43,956 bases of DNA, taken from contig NZ_KB910961.1 in assembly GCF_000383235.1 (NCBI RefSeq), forward strand, positions 1 to 43,956. The letters are read 5' to 3'. The stretch is from Bacillus sp. 123MFChir2. GTDB lineage: Bacteria; Bacillota; Bacilli; Bacillales; Bacillaceae_G. Below the pieces are notes generated by a model that made no database searches, had not been told where the DNA came from, and saw only the letters and a list, made by a program, of their open reading frames with translations. Position numbers and translations under genes: made by a program. This document shows positions 3,123 through 16,917 of the stretch, piece after piece. Within the stretch, counting starts at the first letter, position 1. Every line of letters begins with the position of its first letter.

Positions 3123-3692
3123 ATGAAAGCATTGCTAGTTTTAGATATGCAAAAAGGACTTTTAGCAAAAAAGAATTTTAGTTCTGAAAAAGATTTAATT
3201 GAAAAGATGATAAATCATTTTAAAAATCAAGGTAATCCCGTTATTTTTATGAAGCACCAGGATGAAAATCCGGATAGTAGCATATATAGTCAATCGGAAG
3301 GCAGTGAAATAGAAAATCAGTTTGTAAAATATATAGATTATTTAGTTGGAAAAACTACGCCAAGTGCTTTTTTACATACAAATTTAGATGCTATATTACG
3401 TGAAAATAACGTCAATCATGTGGTTATAGTAGGATTTAATACAGAATATTGTTGCTTATTTACAGCTATTGCTGCTTTTGAAAAAGGATATAAAGTAACA
3501 GTTATAGAAGATGCAACTGGTACAGTAAATGATGAAGAAACATACGAAATGCCAGGATTAAATATTAATGATTTTGTTGGTTCAGTATTAAATTGGTCCA
3601 ATGTTATTGAAGTTTTATATTATAGTGAATATGTCGATTCCTATATTGGAAAAGGGAGTGGTTGTAATGAAACAAGCACTTATAGTAATTGA
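3123..3692 (+). CDS. Isochorismatase-family cysteine hydrolase (first of tandem pair)
   Basis: 189 residues. Isochorismatase-like hydrolase fold with the expected triad: Asp8 (L-V-L-D-M-Q-K-G), Lys77 (V-G-K-T-T-P-S-A-F) and Cys110 (G-F-N-T-E-Y-C), plus the cis-peptide region after V-I-V-G. Enzymes of this family hydrolyse C-N bonds (nicotinamide, N-carbamoyl compounds) or, without the Cys, isochorismate. The Cys points to an amidohydrolase. It lies 17 bases after the AAC(6')-like gene. Its last 26 bases overlap the start of a second hydrolase of the same family, so the pair looks like a tandem duplication that has diverged. The C-terminal tail is unlike the second copy. The substrate is unknown. 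Confidence 0.85.
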   Translation: MKALLVLDMQKGLLAKKNFSSEKDLIEKMINHFKNQGNPVIFMKHQDENPDSSIYSQSEGSEIENQFVKYIDYLVGKTTPSAFLHTNLDAILRENNVNHVVIVGFNTEYCCLFTAIAAFEKGYKVTVIEDATGTVNDEETYEMPGLNINDFVGSVLNWSNVIEVLYYSEYVDSYIGKGSGCNETSTYSN

Positions 3693-4188
3693 TGTCCAAG
3701 AAGGAATGTATGCAGCGGGTATTCCTGTACATAATGGTTCTAACTTATTGCAAAATTTAGAGGAAGTCATCCGAAAGTGTCGTGCGCATAATATTCCTGT
3801 TATTTATGTACAACACAATGGATCTGAAGGGCATCCGTTAGAAAAAGGAACAGCAGGTTGGCACATTCATTCTAAAATTGCTCCGATGCTAAATGAGATT
3901 ATAGTGGAAAAAGAAACACCGGATTCTTTTTATAAAACGAATCTTCGTGAAGTTTTGCAAGAAAAAGGAATTGAACATCTTTATATTTGTGGATTGCAAA
4001 CAGAATATTGCGTCGATACAACCGTTCGCCGTGCGTTTAGTGAAGGATATAAAGTAACGTTAATTCAAGGGGCGCATAGTACGTTTGATTCAGAGCAATT
4101 ACGTGCCGAGGAGATAATTCACCATCATAACAAAGTATTAGGTTGGTTTGCGGATATAGTCGATGTAAAAGAAATAAAACTGATTTAG
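3667..4188 (+). CDS. Isochorismatase-family cysteine hydrolase (second of tandem pair)
   Basis: 173 residues. Triad Asp8 (L-I-V-I-D-V-Q-E-G), Lys in V-E-K-E-T-P-D-S-F-Y, and Cys in G-L-Q-T-E-Y-C-V-D-T-T. It resembles YwoC/nicotinamidase-like cysteine hydrolases. ATG 3667 is chosen because AAAGGGAG lies 9 bases before it; an upstream in-frame ATG at 3601 has no such site and would run deep inside the previous gene. The overlap with the first hydrolase is 26 bases, so expression is probably coupled. A strong hairpin terminator follows. Substrate unknown; cytoplasmic. Confidence 0.88.
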   Translation: MKQALIVIDVQEGMYAAGIPVHNGSNLLQNLEEVIRKCRAHNIPVIYVQHNGSEGHPLEKGTAGWHIHSKIAPMLNEIIVEKETPDSFYKTNLREVLQEKGIEHLYICGLQTEYCVDTTVRRAFSEGYKVTLIQGAHSTFDSEQLRAEEIIHHHNKVLGWFADIVDVKEIKLI

Positions 4189-4210
4189 AGAAAGCTGATT
4201 GTTTGATAGT

Positions 4211-4256
4211 TAAGCCAGTATTTTTAGGATGAATTCCTAGAAATACTGGCTTATTT
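4211..4256. terminator. Long bidirectional terminator
   Basis: TAAGCCAGTATTT / AAATACTGGCTTA arms, extended inward by TAGGA / TCCTA, followed by TTATTT. It lies between the hydrolase gene and the convergent XRE regulator, so it may serve both. Confidence 0.8.
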
Positions 4257-4277
4257 ACTAGTGCACTTTGTTGTTAA

Positions 4278-4832
4278 TTAAAAAGTAGGAGGCGTAATTG
4301 CAAAAATTACTACTGCTTTCTTTTTATATGGATTTTCCCATTTATGTTTCATGTAAGATGGAATTTTGACACTATCTCCTTTGTGTAAAGTTAATGTTTC
4401 TTGATTTAAATATAGGGTAACAGTTCCTTCTAAAACAAATGCAATTTCCTCCCCTTTGTGTTCCAGCGGTTTTTCAGAAGAAGCAGATTGCGGCAATAAA
4501 GTCATAAGAGCAAGCTCGAGAGCGCCACTTAAATCGGGAGATAGTAACTCGTATGATAAGCTTTCACTTTCAGGAAAGGTAATTTTTTTTCGTTGGTTAG
4601 CTCTTACAACTAAGCTTTGAGCATTCGTATCTTCCAAGAAGAAATTAAACATAGGAATATTTAATGCGGCAGCTATTAACTTAAGAGTTTGTAGAGAAGG
4701 GTTTGCGGATCCCTTTTCAATTTGACTTAACATAGAAGGAGTGATATTGACGAGGGTTGCTAGTTCTCGACTATTTAATCCTTGTGCTTTTCGGTATTCT
4801 GCTATTTTTTCTCCGACATTTATATCATTCAT
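4278..4832 (-). CDS. XRE-family regulator with C-terminal cupin, next to D-serine dehydratase
   Basis: 184 residues. The N-terminal helix-turn-helix covers about 7-61 (G-E-K-I-A-E-Y-R-K-A-Q-G-L-N-S-R-E-L-A, then S-M-L-S-Q-I-E-K-G). A cupin_2 barrel follows at about 105-180 with E-H-K-G-E-E-I-A-F-V-L-E-G and L-H-K-G-D-S-V. This architecture is common in regulators that sense a small metabolite in the cupin. Its start (ATG 4832-4830) has a strong AAAGGAGAA site. It is divergent from the dsdA gene across 159 very AT-rich bases, so it most likely controls D-serine dehydratase and itself. In enteric bacteria dsdA is controlled by a LysR protein, so this would be a different solution. The ligand is not known. 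Confidence 0.88.
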   Translation of the reverse strand: MNDINVGEKIAEYRKAQGLNSRELATLVNITPSMLSQIEKGSANPSLQTLKLIAAALNIPMFNFFLEDTNAQSLVVRANQRKKITFPESESLSYELLSPDLSGALELALMTLLPQSASSEKPLEHKGEEIAFVLEGTVTLYLNQETLTLHKGDSVKIPSYMKHKWENPYKKKAVVIFAITPPTF

Positions 4833-4854
4833 GTTTATTCTCCTTTTTCTAGTT

Positions 4855-4945
4855 GATATTAAATTTAATTAAAATTTATTAATTTATATTTAATTTATTT
4901 TAGTTTTGTGTTAAATTTATTTTAATTATAATAAATAAATTTAAA
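4855..4945. promoter_or_regulatory. AT-only divergent operator/promoter region
   Basis: Nearly 90 bases that are almost purely A and T, made of repeated TTAAATTTA / TTAATTTA / TAAATTTAA words between the divergent XRE regulator and dsdA. Repeated palindromic words at this position suggest several binding sites for the regulator. No single promoter can be assigned with certainty because many TATAAT-like hexamers are possible. Confidence 0.5.
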
Positions 4946-4991
4946 TTTTGAAATGATAACATGGTAGGAATGAAGAAGGGAGATTAGCCGA

Positions 4992-6323
4992 ATGAAGAAG
5001 TATGACAGCGAAGCTATACAAACGTTAAAAGAAAAGTATCCTTTATTAAATCAACTTGTTTTGACAGAGGAAGTATTTTGGGTGAATCCGAATAAAGAAG
5101 AATTTGAAACAGGAATTCAAAAAGCCCCCCTTACGAAAGATGATGTAAAGGATGCGGAGGAAAGATTAAAACGTTTTGCGCCGTATATTGCGAAAGCTTT
5201 TCCTGAGACAAAAGATACAAATGGAATCATTGAGTCTCCTTTAGTCACAACGCCTTCTATGAAACAACATTTAGAACAAGAGTATGGTCAGCATATCGCA
5301 GGAAACGTATTACTTAAATGTGATAGCCATCTTCCAATATCAGGATCTATTAAAGCAAGAGGTGGCATTTATGAAGTTCTAAAACATGCAGAAGATTTAG
5401 CTTTAGAACAGGGGTTATTAAATAAACAAGATGATTATTCCGTTTTAGATAGTGATGCATTCCGCACATTCTTTTCGCAATATTCAATCGCAGTAGGTTC
5501 AACGGGGAATTTAGGTCTAAGTATTGGCATTATGAGTGCTAAACTTGGATTTAATGTGACGGTTCATATGTCAGCTGATGCAAAGCAGTGGAAAAAGGAT
5601 TTACTACGCAGTAAAAATGTTACTGTTATTGAATATGCAGCGGACTATAGTAAGGCAGTAGAAGAAGGAAGAAGACAAGCAGAAGCAGATCCGATGTGTT
5701 ATTTCGTTGATGATGAAAACTCAAAAAATCTTTTCCTTGGATACGCTGTGGCAGCTTCTCGCTTACAAAATCAACTACAAGATCAAAACGTTATTGTTGA
5801 TGCTGATCATCCTTTATTTGTTTATTTACCATGTGGTGTCGGCGGCGGACCTGGCGGCGTAGCGTTTGGTTTAAAATTATTGTTTGGTGATCATGTACAT
5901 TGCTTCTTTGCGGAACCAACTCATTCTCCTTGTATGTTAATTGGTTTACTGACAGGTCTTCATGATCAAATTTCTGTCCAAGACTTTGGGATTGATAATG
6001 TGACGGAAGCTGATGGTCTTGCGGTAGGAAGAGCATCCGGATTTGTAGGGAAAGTAATTGAACCTTTATTAAGTGGATGTTACACAGTGAGTGATCAAGA
6101 ATTATATAGACTATTAAAGGCTTTTGTTGATACAGAAGGAATAAAATTAGAGCCGTCAGCATTGGCTAGTGTATACGGACCAGTTCAATTGTTCAAGCAA
6201 CAGCAATATATTCAAGAAAATCACTTGGAAGAAAAAATGAAACAAGCAACGCATATTATGTGGGGAACAGGCGGAGGAATGGTTCCACCGCAAATTATGG
6301 AAGAATATTATCAAAAAGGATAA
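4992..6323 (+). CDS. dsdA: D-serine dehydratase (D-serine ammonia-lyase)
   Basis: 443 residues, the family length. It converts D-serine to pyruvate and ammonia with pyridoxal phosphate in the cytoplasm. The cofactor lysine is Lys121 in [11 protein letters not shown]. The phosphate-binding glycine loop is at [20 protein letters not shown] binds the substrate/cofactor and W-G-T-G-G-G-M-V-P is the C-terminal signature. ATG 4992 follows GAAGAAGGGAG. The divergent XRE-cupin gene is the probable regulator. A terminator hairpin at 6351-6390 makes it a one-gene unit. D-serine is toxic and is found in animal hosts and soils, so detoxification or use as a carbon source is a plausible role. Confidence 0.96.
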
Positions 6324-6350
6324 ACAATCTTTTTCTATTATATATGTAAG

Positions 6351-6390
6351 AGTACATCGCTTATCTAAAGTGGTGTACTTTTTGTTTTTT
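6351..6390 (+). terminator. Terminator after dsdA
   Basis: AGTACATCGCTT / AGTGGTGTACT stem (one G-T pair and one mismatch), followed by TTTTTGTTTTTT. Confidence 0.8.
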
Positions 6391-6512
6391 ATACGCTTCT
6401 TTTGGATTTCATATATTGTTATGACAAGAATAATTTACCAAAATATCAGTTTCGGTTATAATTAATTTGTTTATAAAATTAGGAAAATTCACAATAATTA
6501 AGGGGGATTATT

Positions 6513-7538
6513 TTGAATACAACTCAACTATCTGAACAATTCAAAAGTTTTGCCAAAATGGAATGTAAAGGTTCAAGTGAATTATATGAGTATTTATCTA
6601 TCGAAATTTCTGAAGATGATGAATTGTTAGAGCTATGCATGAATTCTCGAGAAGGGCAGCCAGTTCCTAATTTATTATTTGGTGCTGTCCATTATCTTTT
6701 GCTAAAAGGAAAAGAACATGTTTTAAAAGAGTATTACCCAAGTATTACGAAAAATCCAAGGGAAATTGATGATTCTTTACTTCATTTTAAAGATTTTTGC
6801 CAAGTATATAAAGACGAAATAATTTCTCTCCTAAAGAGTAAGTTAGTACAGACGAATGAAGTAAGGCGCTGCGCGTATTTATATCCAATTTTTTGTTATA
6901 TTTATAGCGTTGTCAAGAAACCGTTATCACTAATAGAAATTGGAACAAGTGCTGGTCTTCAATTGTTATGGGACAAGTATAGTTACTCGTATGGAACAAA
7001 TGAGGTATATGGAGATAGAAACTCACACGTCCACATAACATCTGAAATAAAAGGAAATCGGACACCGTCATTTCTTTTACCTAGTCCTCCAGTAGCTTCA
7101 AAAGTAGGGCTAGACTTACATATTAGCGATTTAAATAATTTTGAAGATTATTTGTGGTTAAAATCGCTTATTTGGCCAGAACATGAAGAAAGGATAGAAC
7201 TTTTTGAAAAGGCAGCTGCATGTTTAATTGAAAATCCAGTAGAACTTATAGAAGGCGATGGAGTGGCATTGCTTTCAGAAGTTGTAGAAAAACTTCCGGA
7301 GGATACTGTAATTTGTATTTTCCATACACATGTTGCAAATCAAATACCAGAAAATTCTAAGCATGAACTGCTAGAAAAAATAAAAACGATTGGAAGTAAA
7401 CGAGACGTTTTCCATCTTTACAATAATATATGGGATCGAAATCTTCATCTTGATTATTATATAGATGGTGTTGAGTACCATCAAATGGTTGGAGAAACAG
7501 ATGGGCATGGTAGATGGTTTGATTGGAACTTAATGTAG
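6513..7538 (+). CDS. DUF2332 family protein
   Basis: 341 residues. It matches the DUF2332 pattern: G-Q-P-V-P-N-L-L-F-G-A-V-H near 50, E-V-R-R-C near 116, then L-I-E-I-G-T-S-A-G-L at about 140, which looks like the glycine motif of an S-adenosylmethionine-dependent methyltransferase fold, and F-H-T-H-V in the C-terminal part. No function is established for the family that I know of; a methyltransferase-like fold is inference. The start TTG at 6513 follows AAGGGGG. The next gene begins 24 bases after its stop and is probably co-transcribed. Confidence 0.8.
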   Translation: MNTTQLSEQFKSFAKMECKGSSELYEYLSIEISEDDELLELCMNSREGQPVPNLLFGAVHYLLLKGKEHVLKEYYPSITKNPREIDDSLLHFKDFCQVYKDEIISLLKSKLVQTNEVRRCAYLYPIFCYIYSVVKKPLSLIEIGTSAGLQLLWDKYSYSYGTNEVYGDRNSHVHITSEIKGNRTPSFLLPSPPVASKVGLDLHISDLNNFEDYLWLKSLIWPEHEERIELFEKAAACLIENPVELIEGDGVALLSEVVEKLPEDTVICIFHTHVANQIPENSKHELLEKIKTIGSKRDVFHLYNNIWDRNLHLDYYIDGVEYHQMVGETDGHGRWFDWNLM

Positions 7539-10962: not shown

Positions 10963-11261
10963 TATTTGAACCTCTCTTTTTCTATTTAGTTTGAATGAAA
11001 AAAGGGACTTTATGCATGGGAATTTTAAATTGCAATTTTTTAGGTAGTTTCTAAAAAGACAGAAGATAAATGCGTAGTTATAAATCGATTTAATGTCTTT
11101 AGTACTTAGCCTGTTTCCTTTGTTTCCGGTTATTTTAAGTACAATTTCTAATATACGGTTAAAATTTTTATTACCTTTACTTGTCTGAATGTTAAAAAAA
11201 TACAAAAGAAATGTTATATTAGAAAGAGAAAATTAACATTTTTAGGTAAGGGGGGATCGGG

Positions 11262-14200
11262 GTGTGGATTACTTCGGAAGTAGAAATTCCAGATGAACTC
11301 TTTGATAAACTCGAACAAGGGAAACTGGTTTTATTTGTTGGAGCTGGAGTATCTATGAAAGGCAATTCAAACTTACCAAATTTTGATGATTTAGTGGATG
11401 ATATTGCAAGCGCTCTATATGTAGATAAACGCGTGGAAAATGAACCGCACGATTATTATCTCGGAAAAATTGCAAAAACGAAAGATGTTCATCAGATTGC
11501 GAAGAATCTTGTTCATGTAGCAGGTTCAAAGCCAAATCCATTACATTATTCTATTTTGCAATTATTTGCAGCTGATGAGAATGTTCGAATTGTAACTACA
11601 AATTTTGATCAGCATTTCACGGCGGTAATTGAGGAGTCAAAACGTAAAATAAATATATATTACGCTCCGGCACTTCCAACGGGAAGAGCATTTAAAGGAT
11701 TGGCATATATTCATGGAAATGTAGAACAAGAAGAAGAAAATTTAATTTTGACTGATGGTGATTTTGGAAGGGCTTACTTAACAGAAGGATGGGCGAGACG
11801 ATTTTTAATTGATTTATTTTCTAATTATACAGTTTTATTTATTGGATATAGTCATAATGACCCTGTTATGAAATATTTAGCAACTGGATTACCACCAAGT
11901 ACGAGGCGGTATGCGTTTGTTGCGGGGGGAGATAATACATATCACTGGGAGCATTTAGGGGTTAAGCCTATTGTCTATCCCAATAAGACGCAAAATCATC
12001 AATCATTAGCAAAAGCAGTGCAGCGATGGGCAGAGCTAATGGGAGACAATTATATTACAAAGAGAACACGAATTCGAGATATCGTAACGGTTCCACCATC
12101 TTTAGAACAAGAACAGTTGTCTTATGTTAAACAATCAATAAAAAAGATTGAGACACTTCGCTACTTTGTTGAATTTGCAAGAGACTACGAATGGGTGGAA
12201 TGGTTAGAAAAAGAAGGACAACTGCGGAATTTATTTTCGGAGGAAGCTGAGACTTCTGAGAAAGATCAGTTGCTTGCACAGTGGATTGTGGATCATTTTT
12301 TAGTAAGCCACCAAAATGAATTATTTCAGTTGATGTATAAAAATAATACAGAAATATCTGCCTCGTTATGGAATACGATATGTACATTTTTGGTGGGTAT
12401 GGAACAACCAATACATATGGATACGTTTGCGAAGTGGCTCTTATTATTGTTAGAAAAGGCGAGGGGAAATGAATTTTTTATAGAAAATCTGCCTTCCTTT
12501 CTTCATAAATGTACGTACCCGAAACATAAAGAAATTATGGTTCTTTTATTAACTTGCATATTAGACGGAAAACTAAAATTGAAGCGGCTTCGGCAATGGG
12601 AACAAGAAATGCAAGATGTTGTAGAATTAGCGGCAACAAACCATCTATCGGATACAACCTTTTCAAAGATGCAGCACATATGGGAAGTGAAAATAAAACC
12701 ACATCTCTCTTATTTTTCGATTCCGATTTTGCAGATTGGATTAGAAAAACTACAGAGATTAGGATTAAAACAACAGGCGCTTCAAATCCATGATTCAGTT
12801 AGTGCATCGCGAAGTGCAATTGAACCGCATGAACAAGATAGCCAACCTCGTGAATTTTCTTTTTTAATTAATATTGTTAGGGATTGTATGGACTATGTTT
12901 GTATCCATTTTGAAGATAAAGCGAATTTTTATATTTCCTTTATGATGGAATTTGGAAATACAGTGCAAAAGCGAATGGCAGTGCATAGTATGAACCATAC
13001 TGTTTTTCGAACCCAAAATGAAAAAATAGAATGGTTGTTACAACATCAATTGTTCACTGAAGACACTTGTAAGCATGAAGTTTTTCAACTGTTAAAGAAT
13101 CATTATGAGCATGTATCTGAACATACGAAAGAAAAAGTGCTGACAACTATAGAGAAACAGTTTGAAGAAAAGACGTGTTATGTGGCTTGTAACTTAATCG
13201 ATTGGCTATATATGTGCGACCCAATAAATGAACGAACGAAACAAACATATGAATTTATGAAACAAAAATTCCCTCATTTTTTATCGAGGCAGTTTCCTGA
13301 TTTACAAGAAGAGCGGACATTACAGCCAATTGCATGCAATTTAACAACTGATGGTTTGCTACATATGAAAGAGGAAGAAATGATAAGGCAAATACTTCAA
13401 TATTCACAAGAAGGATTGTTTGAGAAACATCATTTTTTAGAAATGCTATCAAAGGCTTGTAAAACAAATGTACAATGGAGTATTTCTCTTGCGTATCAAT
13501 TAGTTAAATATAAAGAAGTGAGTAAAGAAGTATGGTTTGTATTCATAAGAGATTGGCGCAATAATCGAAAATTAACAGATAAACAGATGCAAGAGCTTTT
13601 ACCATTGCTGCATCAATTTGTAAGGCATGATACTTACCATTGGCTCATTAGCAGTTTTCTCTATGAAAAGGGCAATCAGTTAGCAGAATTTCAAGAAGAT
13701 ACAATTCGAGCAATAAAACAGCTTGCTTTTTCATTGTTTCCTCACGTTATGAAAAGTGAACAAGGAGGGGGAGAAAAGCAAACGGATTACTATAATGAGG
13801 CTGCTTTGCATCCAGTAGGGAAAATAACAGCAGTTTTATTAACACTTCTAGCGTATGAGCATTTATACGATCGAAATATACATGCTTATTTATATGTATT
13901 TGAAGAGCAAATGCAGAAAAAATCATACTACGTAAATATTATGATTGCAAGACTAACAGCTGATTTAACATTTTTATTTCATATCGAGAAGCACTGGTGT
14001 AGAAAGCATATGATTCCTTATTTAGATTTGCAGAAGAATGAAGAGAAAACAAAATATGCATGGGCAGGGTTTGTAAATACGCAAATTAATTTGCCTTTAT
14101 TTATACAAACAAAGAAATATATTGCTTTTGCTGTTAGACATTTACATTTGTTGAATAAACAAACACAAGAAGTATTTATGAAATGGTTAAGTCTCGTTTT

Positions 14201-14777
14201 TTTTAAGTGTATTTTATATTGGGATAAACAACTAGATTGGTTGAACGCTCTCTTTATACAGGGGGAAGAGATAGAGAAAGTAAAGTTTATAGAAAATGTC
14301 TCATATTATGTAAAAACTTTGAGCGTAAAAGAACAACAAAAATTTTGGCAAGATTGGCTTGCAGACTTTTTAGTAGAGCGTCCTAAAATGAGTATAATAG
14401 CAGAGAAAGAATATATTATCTTTTTGCGGTTTGTGTTATACATGGATGTTATTGCTGAAAAAGGGATTCAAACTGTTTTATCGCATTTTTCTATATCTTC
14501 ATTGCAAAGAGAAAAACAAGCATTAAAGGATTTATTGAAACAGCTGTTAGAAAAAAACGAGTTGATTCATCAAAGTCCTAAAGTATATGCAACATTATTT
14601 TTTGTATTATTAACAAAGATAAATGATGCAGAATGTATTGAAAATGAAGTGATTCATCTTCGGCACTTGTTTGATGAGATGAAGCTTGAAAACACGTTAC
14701 TTGAACGTATTCAAAATGAAATGATGCGCATTGGAATGATCAATCGAAATACAAATGATTCACATTTGTTATTATGA
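11262..14777 (+). CDS. Large SIR2-domain protein, defence-associated sirtuin-like (candidate anti-phage NADase)
   Basis: 1171 residues. The N-terminal SIR2 domain (about 10-260) shows the NAD-binding motif F-V-G-A-G-V-S (25-31), T-T-N-F-D (112-116) with the catalytic-type Asn114, Y-I-H-G (149-152) with His151, T-D-G-D-F-G-R (164-170) and F-I-G-Y-S-H-N-D-P (193-201). The remaining 900 residues are predicted helical, rich in Leu/Lys/Glu, with no visible P-loop, nuclease or membrane segment. SIR2 followed by a long helical C-terminus without an NTPase is the plan of the DSR1/DSR2 sirtuins, which deplete NAD+ when a phage protein binds their C-terminal part. Avs5-type SIR2 proteins differ by having a STAND NTPase. 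The start is GTG 11262 after AAGGGGGG. Base composition is like the neighbours and no phage genes are near. The SIR2 domain is certain; the defence role and NADase activity are inference. Confidence 0.88.
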   Translation: MWITSEVEIPDELFDKLEQGKLVLFVGAGVSMKGNSNLPNFDDLVDDIASALYVDKRVENEPHDYYLGKIAKTKDVHQIAKNLVHVAGSKPNPLHYSILQLFAADENVRIVTTNFDQHFTAVIEESKRKINIYYAPALPTGRAFKGLAYIHGNVEQEEENLILTDGDFGRAYLTEGWARRFLIDLFSNYTVLFIGYSHNDPVMKYLATGLPPSTRRYAFVAGGDNTYHWEHLGVKPIVYPNKTQNHQSLAKAVQRWAELMGDNYITKRTRIRDIVTVPPSLEQEQLSYVKQSIKKIETLRYFVEFARDYEWVEWLEKEGQLRNLFSEEAETSEKDQLLAQWIVDHFLVSHQNELFQLMYKNNTEISASLWNTICTFLVGMEQPIHMDTFAKWLLLLLEKARGNEFFIENLPSFLHKCTYPKHKEIMVLLLTCILDGKLKLKRLRQWEQEMQDVVELAATNHLSDTTFSKMQHIWEVKIKPHLSYFSIPILQIGLEKLQRLGLKQQALQIHDSVSASRSAIEPHEQDSQPREFSFLINIVRDCMDYVCIHFEDKANFYISFMMEFGNTVQKRMAVHSMNHTVFRTQNEKIEWLLQHQLFTEDTCKHEVFQLLKNHYEHVSEHTKEKVLTTIEKQFEEKTCYVACNLIDWLYMCDPINERTKQTYEFMKQKFPHFLSRQFPDLQEERTLQPIACNLTTDGLLHMKEEEMIRQILQYSQEGLFEKHHFLEMLSKACKTNVQWSISLAYQLVKYKEVSKEVWFVFIRDWRNNRKLTDKQMQELLPLLHQFVRHDTYHWLISSFLYEKGNQLAEFQEDTIRAIKQLAFSLFPHVMKSEQGGGEKQTDYYNEAALHPVGKITAVLLTLLAYEHLYDRNIHAYLYVFEEQMQKKSYYVNIMIARLTADLTFLFHIEKHWCRKHMIPYLDLQKNEEKTKYAWAGFVNTQINLPLFIQTKKYIAFAVRHLHLLNKQTQEVFMKWLSLVFFKCILYWDKQLDWLNALFIQGEEIEKVKFIENVSYYVKTLSVKEQQKFWQDWLADFLVERPKMSIIAEKEYIIFLRFVLYMDVIAEKGIQTVLSHFSISSLQREKQALKDLLKQLLEKNELIHQSPKVYATLFFVLLTKINDAECIENEVIHLRHLFDEMKLENTLLERIQNEMMRIGMINRNTNDSHLLL

Positions 14778-15126: not shown

Positions 15127-15156
15127 TTGACATATTTTGAAACGACATTCTATAAT
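15127..15156 (+). promoter_or_regulatory. SigA promoter of the aro/tyr operon
   Basis: TTGACA at 15127-15132, an 18-base spacer, and TATAAT at 15151-15156, both perfect hexamers. It lies about 30 bases before the first T-box leader. No comparable promoter is seen between the two T-boxes, so one transcript probably carries both. Confidence 0.85.
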
Positions 15157-15185
15157 ACAAATCATACTTAATAAAAACAACGCAT

Positions 15186-15431
15186 TGAAGGGAACAAAAT
15201 AGTGTTTATCTCCCTGTTATAGAGAGCTGATGGTTGGTGGAAATCAGTACAAAGGTAAACGTGAATTACAGTCCTGGAGCATCTTTTTCGTAGTAAAGAC
15301 AGAAGTCTTTATGAAGGGAAAGGCGGTCAAAACGATCGTTAACAATGAAAAGAGGTAGGCAAATATGTCTACAACTAGGGTGGTACCGCGATAATAATCG
15401 TCCCTACTGATTGAATCAGTAGGGATTTTTT
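15186..15431 (+). ncRNA. T-box riboswitch 1, tyrosine specifier
   Basis: The leader has the AGAGAGC...GGTTGGTG stem I features and the specifier region GAA-T-TAC-A-GTCCTGGAGC, which places the codon TAC (Tyr) at 15267-15269. The T-box AGGGTGG is at 15377-15383 in a GGTGGTACCGCG antiterminator, and a terminator hairpin TCCCTACTGATT / AATCAGTAGGGA with a T run is at 15401-15431. Uncharged tRNA-Tyr should stabilise the antiterminator and allow transcription. The specifier was assigned by lining the sequence up with the remembered glyQS layout, not by folding. Confidence 0.92.
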
Positions 15432-15476
15432 GCATATGCGCGGATTTAAATGATAATTAAATAATAAATGTAATGA

Positions 15477-15721
15477 TAGGAAAGAGAGTAGTGGTTGTTT
15501 CCCTGTAACAGAGAGCTGGTGGTTGGTGTGAACCAGTACATAAACAAGCATGAATTACAATCCTGGAACATCTTTTTCGTAGTAAAGGCAAAAGTCTTTA
15601 TGAAGGGAAAGACGGTCAAAACGATCGTTAAGAATAAAGAGAGGTAGACAAATGTGTCTGCAACTAGGGTGGTACCGCGATAATAATCGTCCCTACTGAT
15701 TGGATCAGTAGGGATTTTTTC
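15477..15721 (+). ncRNA. T-box riboswitch 2, tyrosine specifier
   Basis: A second complete copy, closely similar to the first over its whole length. Specifier GAA-T-TAC-A gives TAC (Tyr) at 15556-15558, T-box AGGGTGG is at 15666-15672, and terminator TCCCTACTGATT / GATCAGTAGGGA with a T run is at 15690-15720. It stands in series with the first leader before the DAHP synthase gene, so two terminators must be overcome, which would sharpen the response to tyrosine starvation. Confidence 0.92.
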
Positions 15722-15841: not shown

Positions 15842-16168
15842 ATGGGAAATCATGAATTAGAACAATTACGTAAACAGGTGGATGAGATTAATTTACAACT
15901 TCTGCACTTATTGAATGAGCGTGCGAAGGTTGTGCAAGAAATCGGACAACAAAAGAAATTGCAAGGCACGAAACGCTTCGATCCTGTTCGCGAGCGTGAA
16001 GTACTTGATATGCTTGCAGAGCATAACGAAGGACCATTTGAAACATCTACAGTGCAACATATTTTCAAAACAATTTTTAAAGCGAGCTTAGAACTGCAAG
16101 AAGATGATAATCGTAAAGCATTATTAGTTTCACGTAAAAAAAACAAGAAAATACGATTGTTGATGTAA
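15842..16168 (+). CDS. aroA: Chorismate mutase part of bifunctional DAHP synthase (frameshifted)
   Basis: This frame encodes the AroQ-type chorismate mutase domain that is fused to the N-terminus of DAHP synthase in Bacillus AroA. It shows L-R-K-Q-V-D-E-I-N near the start and a [12 protein letters not shown] block. In the usual 358-residue enzyme the domain regulates the synthase through prephenate and chorismate binding. After residue 100 the frame runs into [10 protein letters not shown] and stops at 16168. The run of eight A at 16136-16143 is one short of the nine that would read on as [11 protein letters not shown] into the synthase domain. So the gene is frameshifted here, by mutation or sequencing error. 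The start has AAGGAGG nearby. The operon is under two tyrosine T-boxes. Confidence 0.8.
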
Positions 16169-16176
16169 AAGGTGAA

Positions 16177-16917
16177 TTGTTAGGAAGTGGCGTACAAACA
16201 TTCATTATGGGGCCATGCGCAGTTGAAAGTTTAGAGCAAGTTCGCCAAGTTGCAGAGGCGATGAAAAAACAAGGAATAAAGTTAATGCGCGGCGGTGCGT
16301 TCAAACCGAGAACATCTCCATACGACTTCCAAGGATTAGGAGTAGAAGGGCTGCAAATTTTACGCCAAGTTGCAGACGAATTTGATTTAGCAATTATTAG
16401 TGAAATCTTAAATCCTAATGATGTAGAAGTGGCACTTGATTACGTTGATGTAATTCAAGTAGGCGCTCGTAATATGCAAAACTTCGATTTATTAAGAGCC
16501 GTTGGAAAAGTGAATAAACCAGTATTACTGAAACGCGGTTTAGCAGCGACAATTGATGAATTTGTGAATGCAGCAGAATACATTATTGCTCAAGGGAATA
16601 ATCAAATTATTTTATGTGAACGCGGCATTCGCACATATGAAAGAGCAACGCGAAATACACTTGATATTTCCGCAGTGCCAATTTTAAAGAAAGAAACACA
16701 TTTACCGGTTGTTGTAGATGTAACACATTCAACAGGGCGAAAAGATTTGCTTTTACCAACTGCGAAAGCAGCACTCGCAATCGGTGCAGATGCTGTTATG
16801 GCAGAAGTGCATCCAGACCCAGCAGTTGCTTTATCTGATTCAGCACAACAAATGGATATTCCGCAGTTCCATGCCTTCATGGAAGAGTTAAAAGGATTTA
16901 AAAATAAATTATCATAG
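16177..16917 (+). CDS. aroA: DAHP synthase part of bifunctional AroA (frameshifted from the mutase part)
   Basis: Encodes 3-deoxy-7-phosphoheptulonate synthase, the first step of the shikimate pathway (phosphoenolpyruvate + erythrose 4-phosphate). Motifs of the type Ib family: [43 protein letters not shown] and E-V-H-P-D-P. The domain is complete, but its start is missing because the preceding mutase frame is off by one base at the A8 run. The TTG at 16177 has AAAAGGTG only 2-3 bases upstream, so independent initiation would be poor. Re-initiation after the mutase stop at 16168 or slippage on the A run could still yield some product. The boundary given is the open frame, not a proven start. 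Confidence 0.82.

Follow-up and report, generated by a model that had tools for sequence, protein, structure and literature searches.

A divergent DSR1-like SIR2 protein of Bacillus sp. 123MFChir2 and a presumed helical sensor module that may occur behind other heads

Results

A single-gene SIR2 protein with an intact active site

The window studied here is a 43,956-nucleotide stretch of the Bacillus sp. 123MFChir2 genome (contig NZ_KB910961.1, positions 1 to 43,956). At 11262..14777 (+) it holds a single open reading frame (ORF) for a protein of 1171 residues, which joins an N-terminal SIR2 domain to an α-solenoid and a DUF4020 domain. The ORF begins with GTG and has no internal stop in its 1171 codons. 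By simple arithmetic, a random frame at about 33% GC hits a stop every 13 codons or so, and the open length is thus not a matter of chance. The start is credible as well, since a ribosome-binding-site-like AAGGGGGG at 11248..11255 (+) lies 6 nt before the GTG and the N-terminus, VWITSEVEIPDEL, aligns with the MWITxDVELPDE-type starts of relatives. Further upstream, at 11192..11220 (+), lies a weak promoter-like TTAAAA-17-TATATT (9/12), with TG ahead of its second hexamer; the region contains 12 such sites against 18.3 in shuffled sequences, so this one is no evidence by itself. The initial annotation, made from the letters of the sequence, described a solitary SIR2 protein of this length, and the intact frame with its SIR2 active site agrees with it.

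The predicted SIR2 domain, of the NADase type (hydrolysing nicotinamide adenine dinucleotide, NAD+), spans residues 1-262 (11262..12047, +); Pfam recognizes SIR2_2 at residues 109-224 (E = 4.8e-20). We aligned the window protein with relatives from 35 of 49 loci (alignment A5), the omitted ones being partial, broken, near-identical or DSR1-type. Sixteen positions are invariant in all 36 rows: G27, A28, G29, S31, T112, T113, N114, D116, H151, G152, D165, D167, G169, G195, S197 and D200. Residue 30 varies among A, V and I, and residue 115 is F in 25 rows, Y in 10 and Q in one. The motifs listed by the initial annotation are all present: GAGVS at 27-31, TTNFD at 112-116, HG with His151, and GYSHNDP at 195-201. 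By motif, Asn114 (codon 11601..11603, +) corresponds to N133 of DSR2 and N112 of ThsA, and His151 (codon 11712..11714, +) to H171 and H152. The DSR2 pocket is reported to contain the equivalents of Asn114, Asp116 and His151, and the D135A or H171A change to lower its NADase activity (PMC11263360). In our alignment the window protein keeps all three pocket residues of DSR2 and ThsA (Asn, Asp and His). Its homology and active site predict NAD+ hydrolysis by the head, and the whole is probably an NADase defence protein.

A helical half ending in DUF4020

The AlphaFold2 model (mean predicted local distance difference test score, pLDDT, 86.4) has an α/β N-terminal domain up to about residue 260, followed by helices. 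This helical half, residues 264-1160 (12051..14741, +), is the presumed sensor, delimited from structure models and from homology to the helical half of DSR1. Its sole β-hairpin, assigned by DSSP on the model, lies at residues 438-456 (12573..12629, +), where pLDDT falls below 50 at 444-450. DUF4020 (PF13212) occupies residues 979-1154 (14196..14723, +; E = 9.3e-36) and passes the Pfam gathering score with 123.7 bits against a cut-off of 22.7. Both Pfam matches were beyond what could be seen by the initial annotation. DUF4020 reaches E 0.01 in 14 of the 28 clade members scanned, the window protein included; the classical Pfam SIR2 family is reached by a single one of the 28, the window protein being SIR2_2.

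At E 0.1, Pfam finds no family in the protein besides these two, hence no nucleoside triphosphatase (NTPase) family, and a Walker A pattern scan gave no match. We conclude that the protein is not of the STAND (signal transduction ATPases with numerous domains) type. This matches the initial annotation, which had described some 900 helical residues without a P-loop; the structure prediction that it proposed as a check returned a helical C-terminal half.

A fold search with the model put full-length DSR2 chains on top, the nearest folds being those of the NADases DSR2 and ThsA; the superposition on DSR2 structures covers residues 1-679 with a large root-mean-square deviation (rmsd). When the helical-half profile was compared with the Protein Data Bank (PDB), no chain scored below E 0.11, though many HEAT and ARM proteins are deposited there. 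Likewise, profile and sequence searches gave no solved structure for the helical half of DSR1.

Both halves are homologous to DSR1

PADLOC Dsr1 models match the window protein with a best E-value of 3.5e-57. For the helical halves, we cut off the SIR2 domain and used a clade alignment of 34 rows (A8, A5 minus two). Against DSR1, represented by an E. coli copy (L002) and three relatives, it aligns over 805 columns with an hhalign E-value of 1.6e-45, against 0.2 for the reversed control. SIR2 proteins of Rhizobium and Zymomonas are reached at 1.8e-22. With three Dsr2-like proteins, which score only 504-679 of the 1400 bits required for NCBIfam Dsr2, the E-value is 0.27. Reversed-sequence controls gave 0.11 to 0.94, with one at 0.066, in a first series, and 0.029 or worse in a second. 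Of the DSR1/DSR2 plan first proposed for this protein, the DSR1 part thus stands for both halves, whereas the naming of DSR2 was loose, the helical half having no profile similarity to the Dsr2-like proteins compared, although its first part superposes, with large rmsd, on DSR2 structures.

In a 35-row tree built from the SIR2 region, 29 clade rows stand apart from six DSR1-side rows with support 100/99; two of the latter, L003 and L004, are long-branched, and the program cautions against false joins in such cases. The window protein pairs with that of Marinococcus luteus (support 96/97), to which it is 46% identical over 335 columns. We therefore take the clade to be a likely sister of DSR1. 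It is new, and DUF4020 marks it only in part.

Compared with DSR1 proper (NF041818; plasmid copy L002), the window protein shares the single-gene organization, a length of about 1200 residues, a homologous helical half and the N-terminal SIR2 domain with catalytic Asn and His, a feature of DSR1 membership. It is 23% identical to L002 and 92 residues shorter. DUF4020, in contrast, was not found in the DSR1-side proteins scanned (L002, L003, L004), nor in a Rhodococcus member of the clade itself (L001). Judged from sequence, the window protein is related to DSR1 over its full length but is divergent, and it does not qualify as DSR1 under the curated definition. On the E. coli plasmid pMTY18781-2, the genes near L002 encode a phosphorothioated-DNA-binding restriction endonuclease, a 5'-nucleotidase and, together with a DNA methyltransferase, a restriction S subunit.

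The window protein also differs from other SIR2 systems. ThsA of Thoeris carries a SLOG ligand domain and works with a TIR partner, whereas the window protein is otherwise helical, with DUF4020 the sole other domain found by Pfam. DSR2 (Bacillus subtilis 29R, PDB 8wyb and others) also combines SIR2 and a helical solenoid in one chain; it has 1005 residues, the window protein being 166 longer. Avs5 (SIR2-STAND) places a P-loop NTPase, not found here, between SIR2 and sensor, and is reported to need its own ATPase (PMC12931631). Finally, unlike in SIR2-HerA and SPARSA, no HerA or Argonaute gene was found among the scanned genes adjoining this one in the window.

Distribution of the clade

The clade is rare, with a patchy spread across several phyla; relatives come from Bacillota, Actinomycetota, Acidobacteriota, Planctomycetota, Pseudomonadota and others. 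In two families searched, 1 of 193 genomes (the one on which the search was centred) and 0 of 34 contain a relative. A helical-half search found 7 of 398 Bacillota genomes, the centre included; two of these seven hits are broken or split and one crosses a masked stretch. Of the broken members of the clade (L122/L128 and L123), one has several stops in the helical half and one is split into two ORFs; intact copies exist elsewhere.

The first 40 residues are nearly identical in six Micrococcales copies (L024, L027, L028, L030, L041 and L046) from Glutamicibacter, Curtobacterium, Herbiconiux, Rothia, Brevibacterium and Microbacterium. L024 and L030 are also close in the SIR2-region tree. Recent transfer among these copies is possible on the strength of this resemblance.

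Genomic setting

For the relatives we scanned at most two flanking ORFs per side (121 of 154 ORFs, from 35 of 41 loci). At E 1e-10 they match 156 PADLOC families; among the matches listed, type I restriction enzymes lead, and a type III restriction enzyme, a type I methyltransferase, DpdE and SoFic are also there. As a control, 120 ORFs (36,013 residues) in 20 regions chosen arbitrarily from other Bacillales genomes match 9 families, a contrast that is overstated: PADLOC models are redundant (one helicase matches 35 of them), control regions come from Bacillales only and from unmatched genomes, ORF calling was mechanical and 33 of the 154 neighbour ORFs were omitted. Phage_integrase appears in three of the 121 neighbours and TrwC relaxase in one.

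In the window itself, the adjoining genes that were scanned are those for DUF2512 and DUF1275 proteins on one side, and for chorismate mutase/DAHP synthase and prephenate dehydrogenase on the other. Two tandem T-box leaders (Rfam RF00230), at 15176-15408 and 15464-15697 (+), score 151.7 and 155 bits and are 84% alike. They precede the chorismate mutase/DAHP synthase gene, and a perfect TTGACA-18-TATAAT stands just upstream of them at 15127-15156. At 15842-16917 (+) the synthase gene consists of two ORFs, each in its own frame, and both pieces match side by side in all 30 relative loci compared; the split may be genuine or an artefact of assembly. Between 36000 and 40000, several ORFs match their families partially, such as an ABC transporter ORF of 171 amino acids (aa) and an acetyltransferase-family ORF covering positions 77-231 of 232; the assembly may hold indels there.

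The helical half without SIR2

The helical profile also matches proteins whose frames have no SIR2 domain (L129 at 3456-7082 on the minus strand, L130-L132 and L155-L170). In the three phyla sampled, 28 genomes have a helical match: the seven of Bacillota, 10 of 376 of Actinomycetota and 11 of 274 of Planctomycetota, three of the 28 being centres chosen because they hold the SIR2 protein. SIR2 is found in the gene or an adjacent piece in 11 of them, SIR2 motifs lie across a masked stretch in one, and 16 have none; three of these 16 (G1375, G1420, G1500) have a gene that is split or cut short, in which a head may be missed. SIR2-less versions (16/28) are therefore about as common as SIR2 versions (12/28) in this sample. 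In L161, L164 and L168, which belong to the 16, the solenoid starts near the start of the protein and leaves little space for any head.

Where a head exists, it is of several kinds. In haloarchaea, plasmid proteins of Haloferax (annotated as an AAA family ATPase) and Haladaptatus carry a head with a Walker A motif. Five proteins have a small head, of about 190 residues, in which a His-Arg pair is invariant. In four Actinomycetota genomes the head has about 620 residues and looks similar on inspection; the one tested matches the Thioredox_DsbH protein 7tkv (E = 5.2e-75).

Individual SIR2-less solenoids (e.g. L129, L130, L155, L156) align with the window clade at hhalign E-values of 5e-18 to 5e-35. 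As sets, the helical halves of L129-L132 (A12) reach 2e-32, the small-head proteins (L131 is in both sets) 4.7e-35 and the DsbH-type proteins 3.2e-20, with reversed controls at 0.47 or worse. Aligned directly with DSR1 proper, these proteins score less well: the A12 set at 2e-07, the small-head set at 8.2e-06, the DsbH-type set at 0.0028, and the single proteins L166, L170 and P0002 at 0.0036 to 0.026. L164 shows no link to DSR1 (0.067, worse than its own reversed control at 0.029). The SIR2-less proteins are thus linked to DSR1 by way of the window clade. With the Dsr2-like set, hhalign gave no alignment for any module protein compared.

On balance we lean towards reading the helical half as one homologous sensor module of about 900 residues, present in bacteria and archaea, with exchangeable heads: SIR2 in the window clade and DSR1, and elsewhere a Walker A ATPase, the small His-Arg head or a thioredoxin/DsbH-type domain. 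The SIR2-less proteins would then be immune proteins too; a limited literature search found no test of such a role.

Discussion

We consider it likely that the window gene encodes a one-gene immune protein of the DSR1 kind, directed against phages or other mobile elements, in which a trigger leads to NAD+ hydrolysis. The gene is intact, its SIR2 active-site residues are kept, its predicted fold is nearest to those of NADases, both halves are homologous to DSR1, and the clade is rare and patchy with relatives in defence-rich neighbourhoods. We infer the NADase activity, the phage target, and both the binding of a trigger by the solenoid and the identity of that trigger. In the resting state the SIR2 domain would be held off; the solenoid of about 900 residues would bind an invader protein, upon which SIR2 domains would rearrange or oligomerise and NAD+ would be hydrolysed via Asn114 and His151, making the infection fail.

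In DSR2 the helical region is reported to form a cavity that binds the phage tail tube (PMC11263360). The same sensing logic may apply to the window protein; we have no grounds for expecting its trigger to be a tail tube protein. The trigger of DSR1 is not named in the available text of PMC10973363, PMC11263360, PMC12931631 and PMC10952713.

Several points weigh against this assignment. The NCBIfam Dsr1 equivalog (NF041818) scores 261 bits, far short of its cut-off of 1400. Phe115 stands where DSR2 has Tyr134, a residue needed for DSR2 activity in that its change to Ala is reported to reduce it (PMC11263360). No match was found in 50,697 phage records and no relative in a pattern scan of IMG/VR contigs, while 99 plasmid records match, none covering more than 80% of the query. 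Pfam detects no defence family in 29 other proteins of the window (which has 55 ORFs of at least 90 aa), in line with the initial remark that the gene is not in a recognizable defence island. To these we add the inflated neighbour contrast. Lastly, the abortive step is uncertain: a review reports that DSR1 differs from other SIR2 and TIR systems in halting phage replication without the cell dying (PMC10952713, citing Garb et al. 2022), and the window system may be misnamed as 'abortive infection'. Of the earlier interpretation, then, the DSR-type architecture, the homology to DSR1, the pocket residues and the exclusion of a STAND protein hold, whereas the pairing with DSR2 was loose and 'abortive' is doubtful.

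The same type of protein might instead have plasmids or other mobile elements, not phages, as its natural target. SIR2 effectors are reported also in Argonaute systems acting on mobile elements (PMC10474274), and the integrases and the relaxase noted above adjoin the relatives. We hold this to be unlikely: the nearest characterised relatives, DSR1 and DSR2, are reported active on phages (PMC10952713, PMC11263360), and the neighbouring restriction enzymes act on phages and mobile elements alike.

The SIR2 fold, and a gene standing alone among metabolic and other non-defence genes, would also fit a housekeeping protein, an NAD-dependent deacylase or regulator equipped with a large arm for protein binding, and the NCBIfam deacylase PRK00481 is indeed reached (E = 0.00083). 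That match, however, has 18.9 bits against a cut-off of 221, the domain is SIR2_2 rather than classical SIR2, the nearest folds are NADases and the clade is too rare and patchy, all of which makes such a role quite improbable. Slightly less probable still is a relic, nonfunctional in its host, as might be suspected from the broken family members (stops in one frame, another frame split; loci L122, L123, L128) and from the further split genes of the window assembly; the window copy, by contrast, is open over its full length and keeps every listed invariant residue. A DSR2-type system sensing the phage tail tube is the least probable of all, for although full-length DSR2 chains top the fold search, superposing over residues 1-679 with large rmsd, the helical half prefers DSR1 (1.6e-45) to Dsr2-like proteins (0.27), a comparison that falls short of proof as the Dsr2-like rows are below the NCBIfam cut-off.

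For the named defence protein DSR1, a second and divergent clade supplies the variation needed for locating a conserved sensing surface. With its solenoid found behind other heads, the question of what DSR1 senses becomes approachable by comparing heads and triggers across the module family. If the module reading is true, several effectors may respond to a single class of trigger, and the proteins without SIR2 would be undescribed immune systems.
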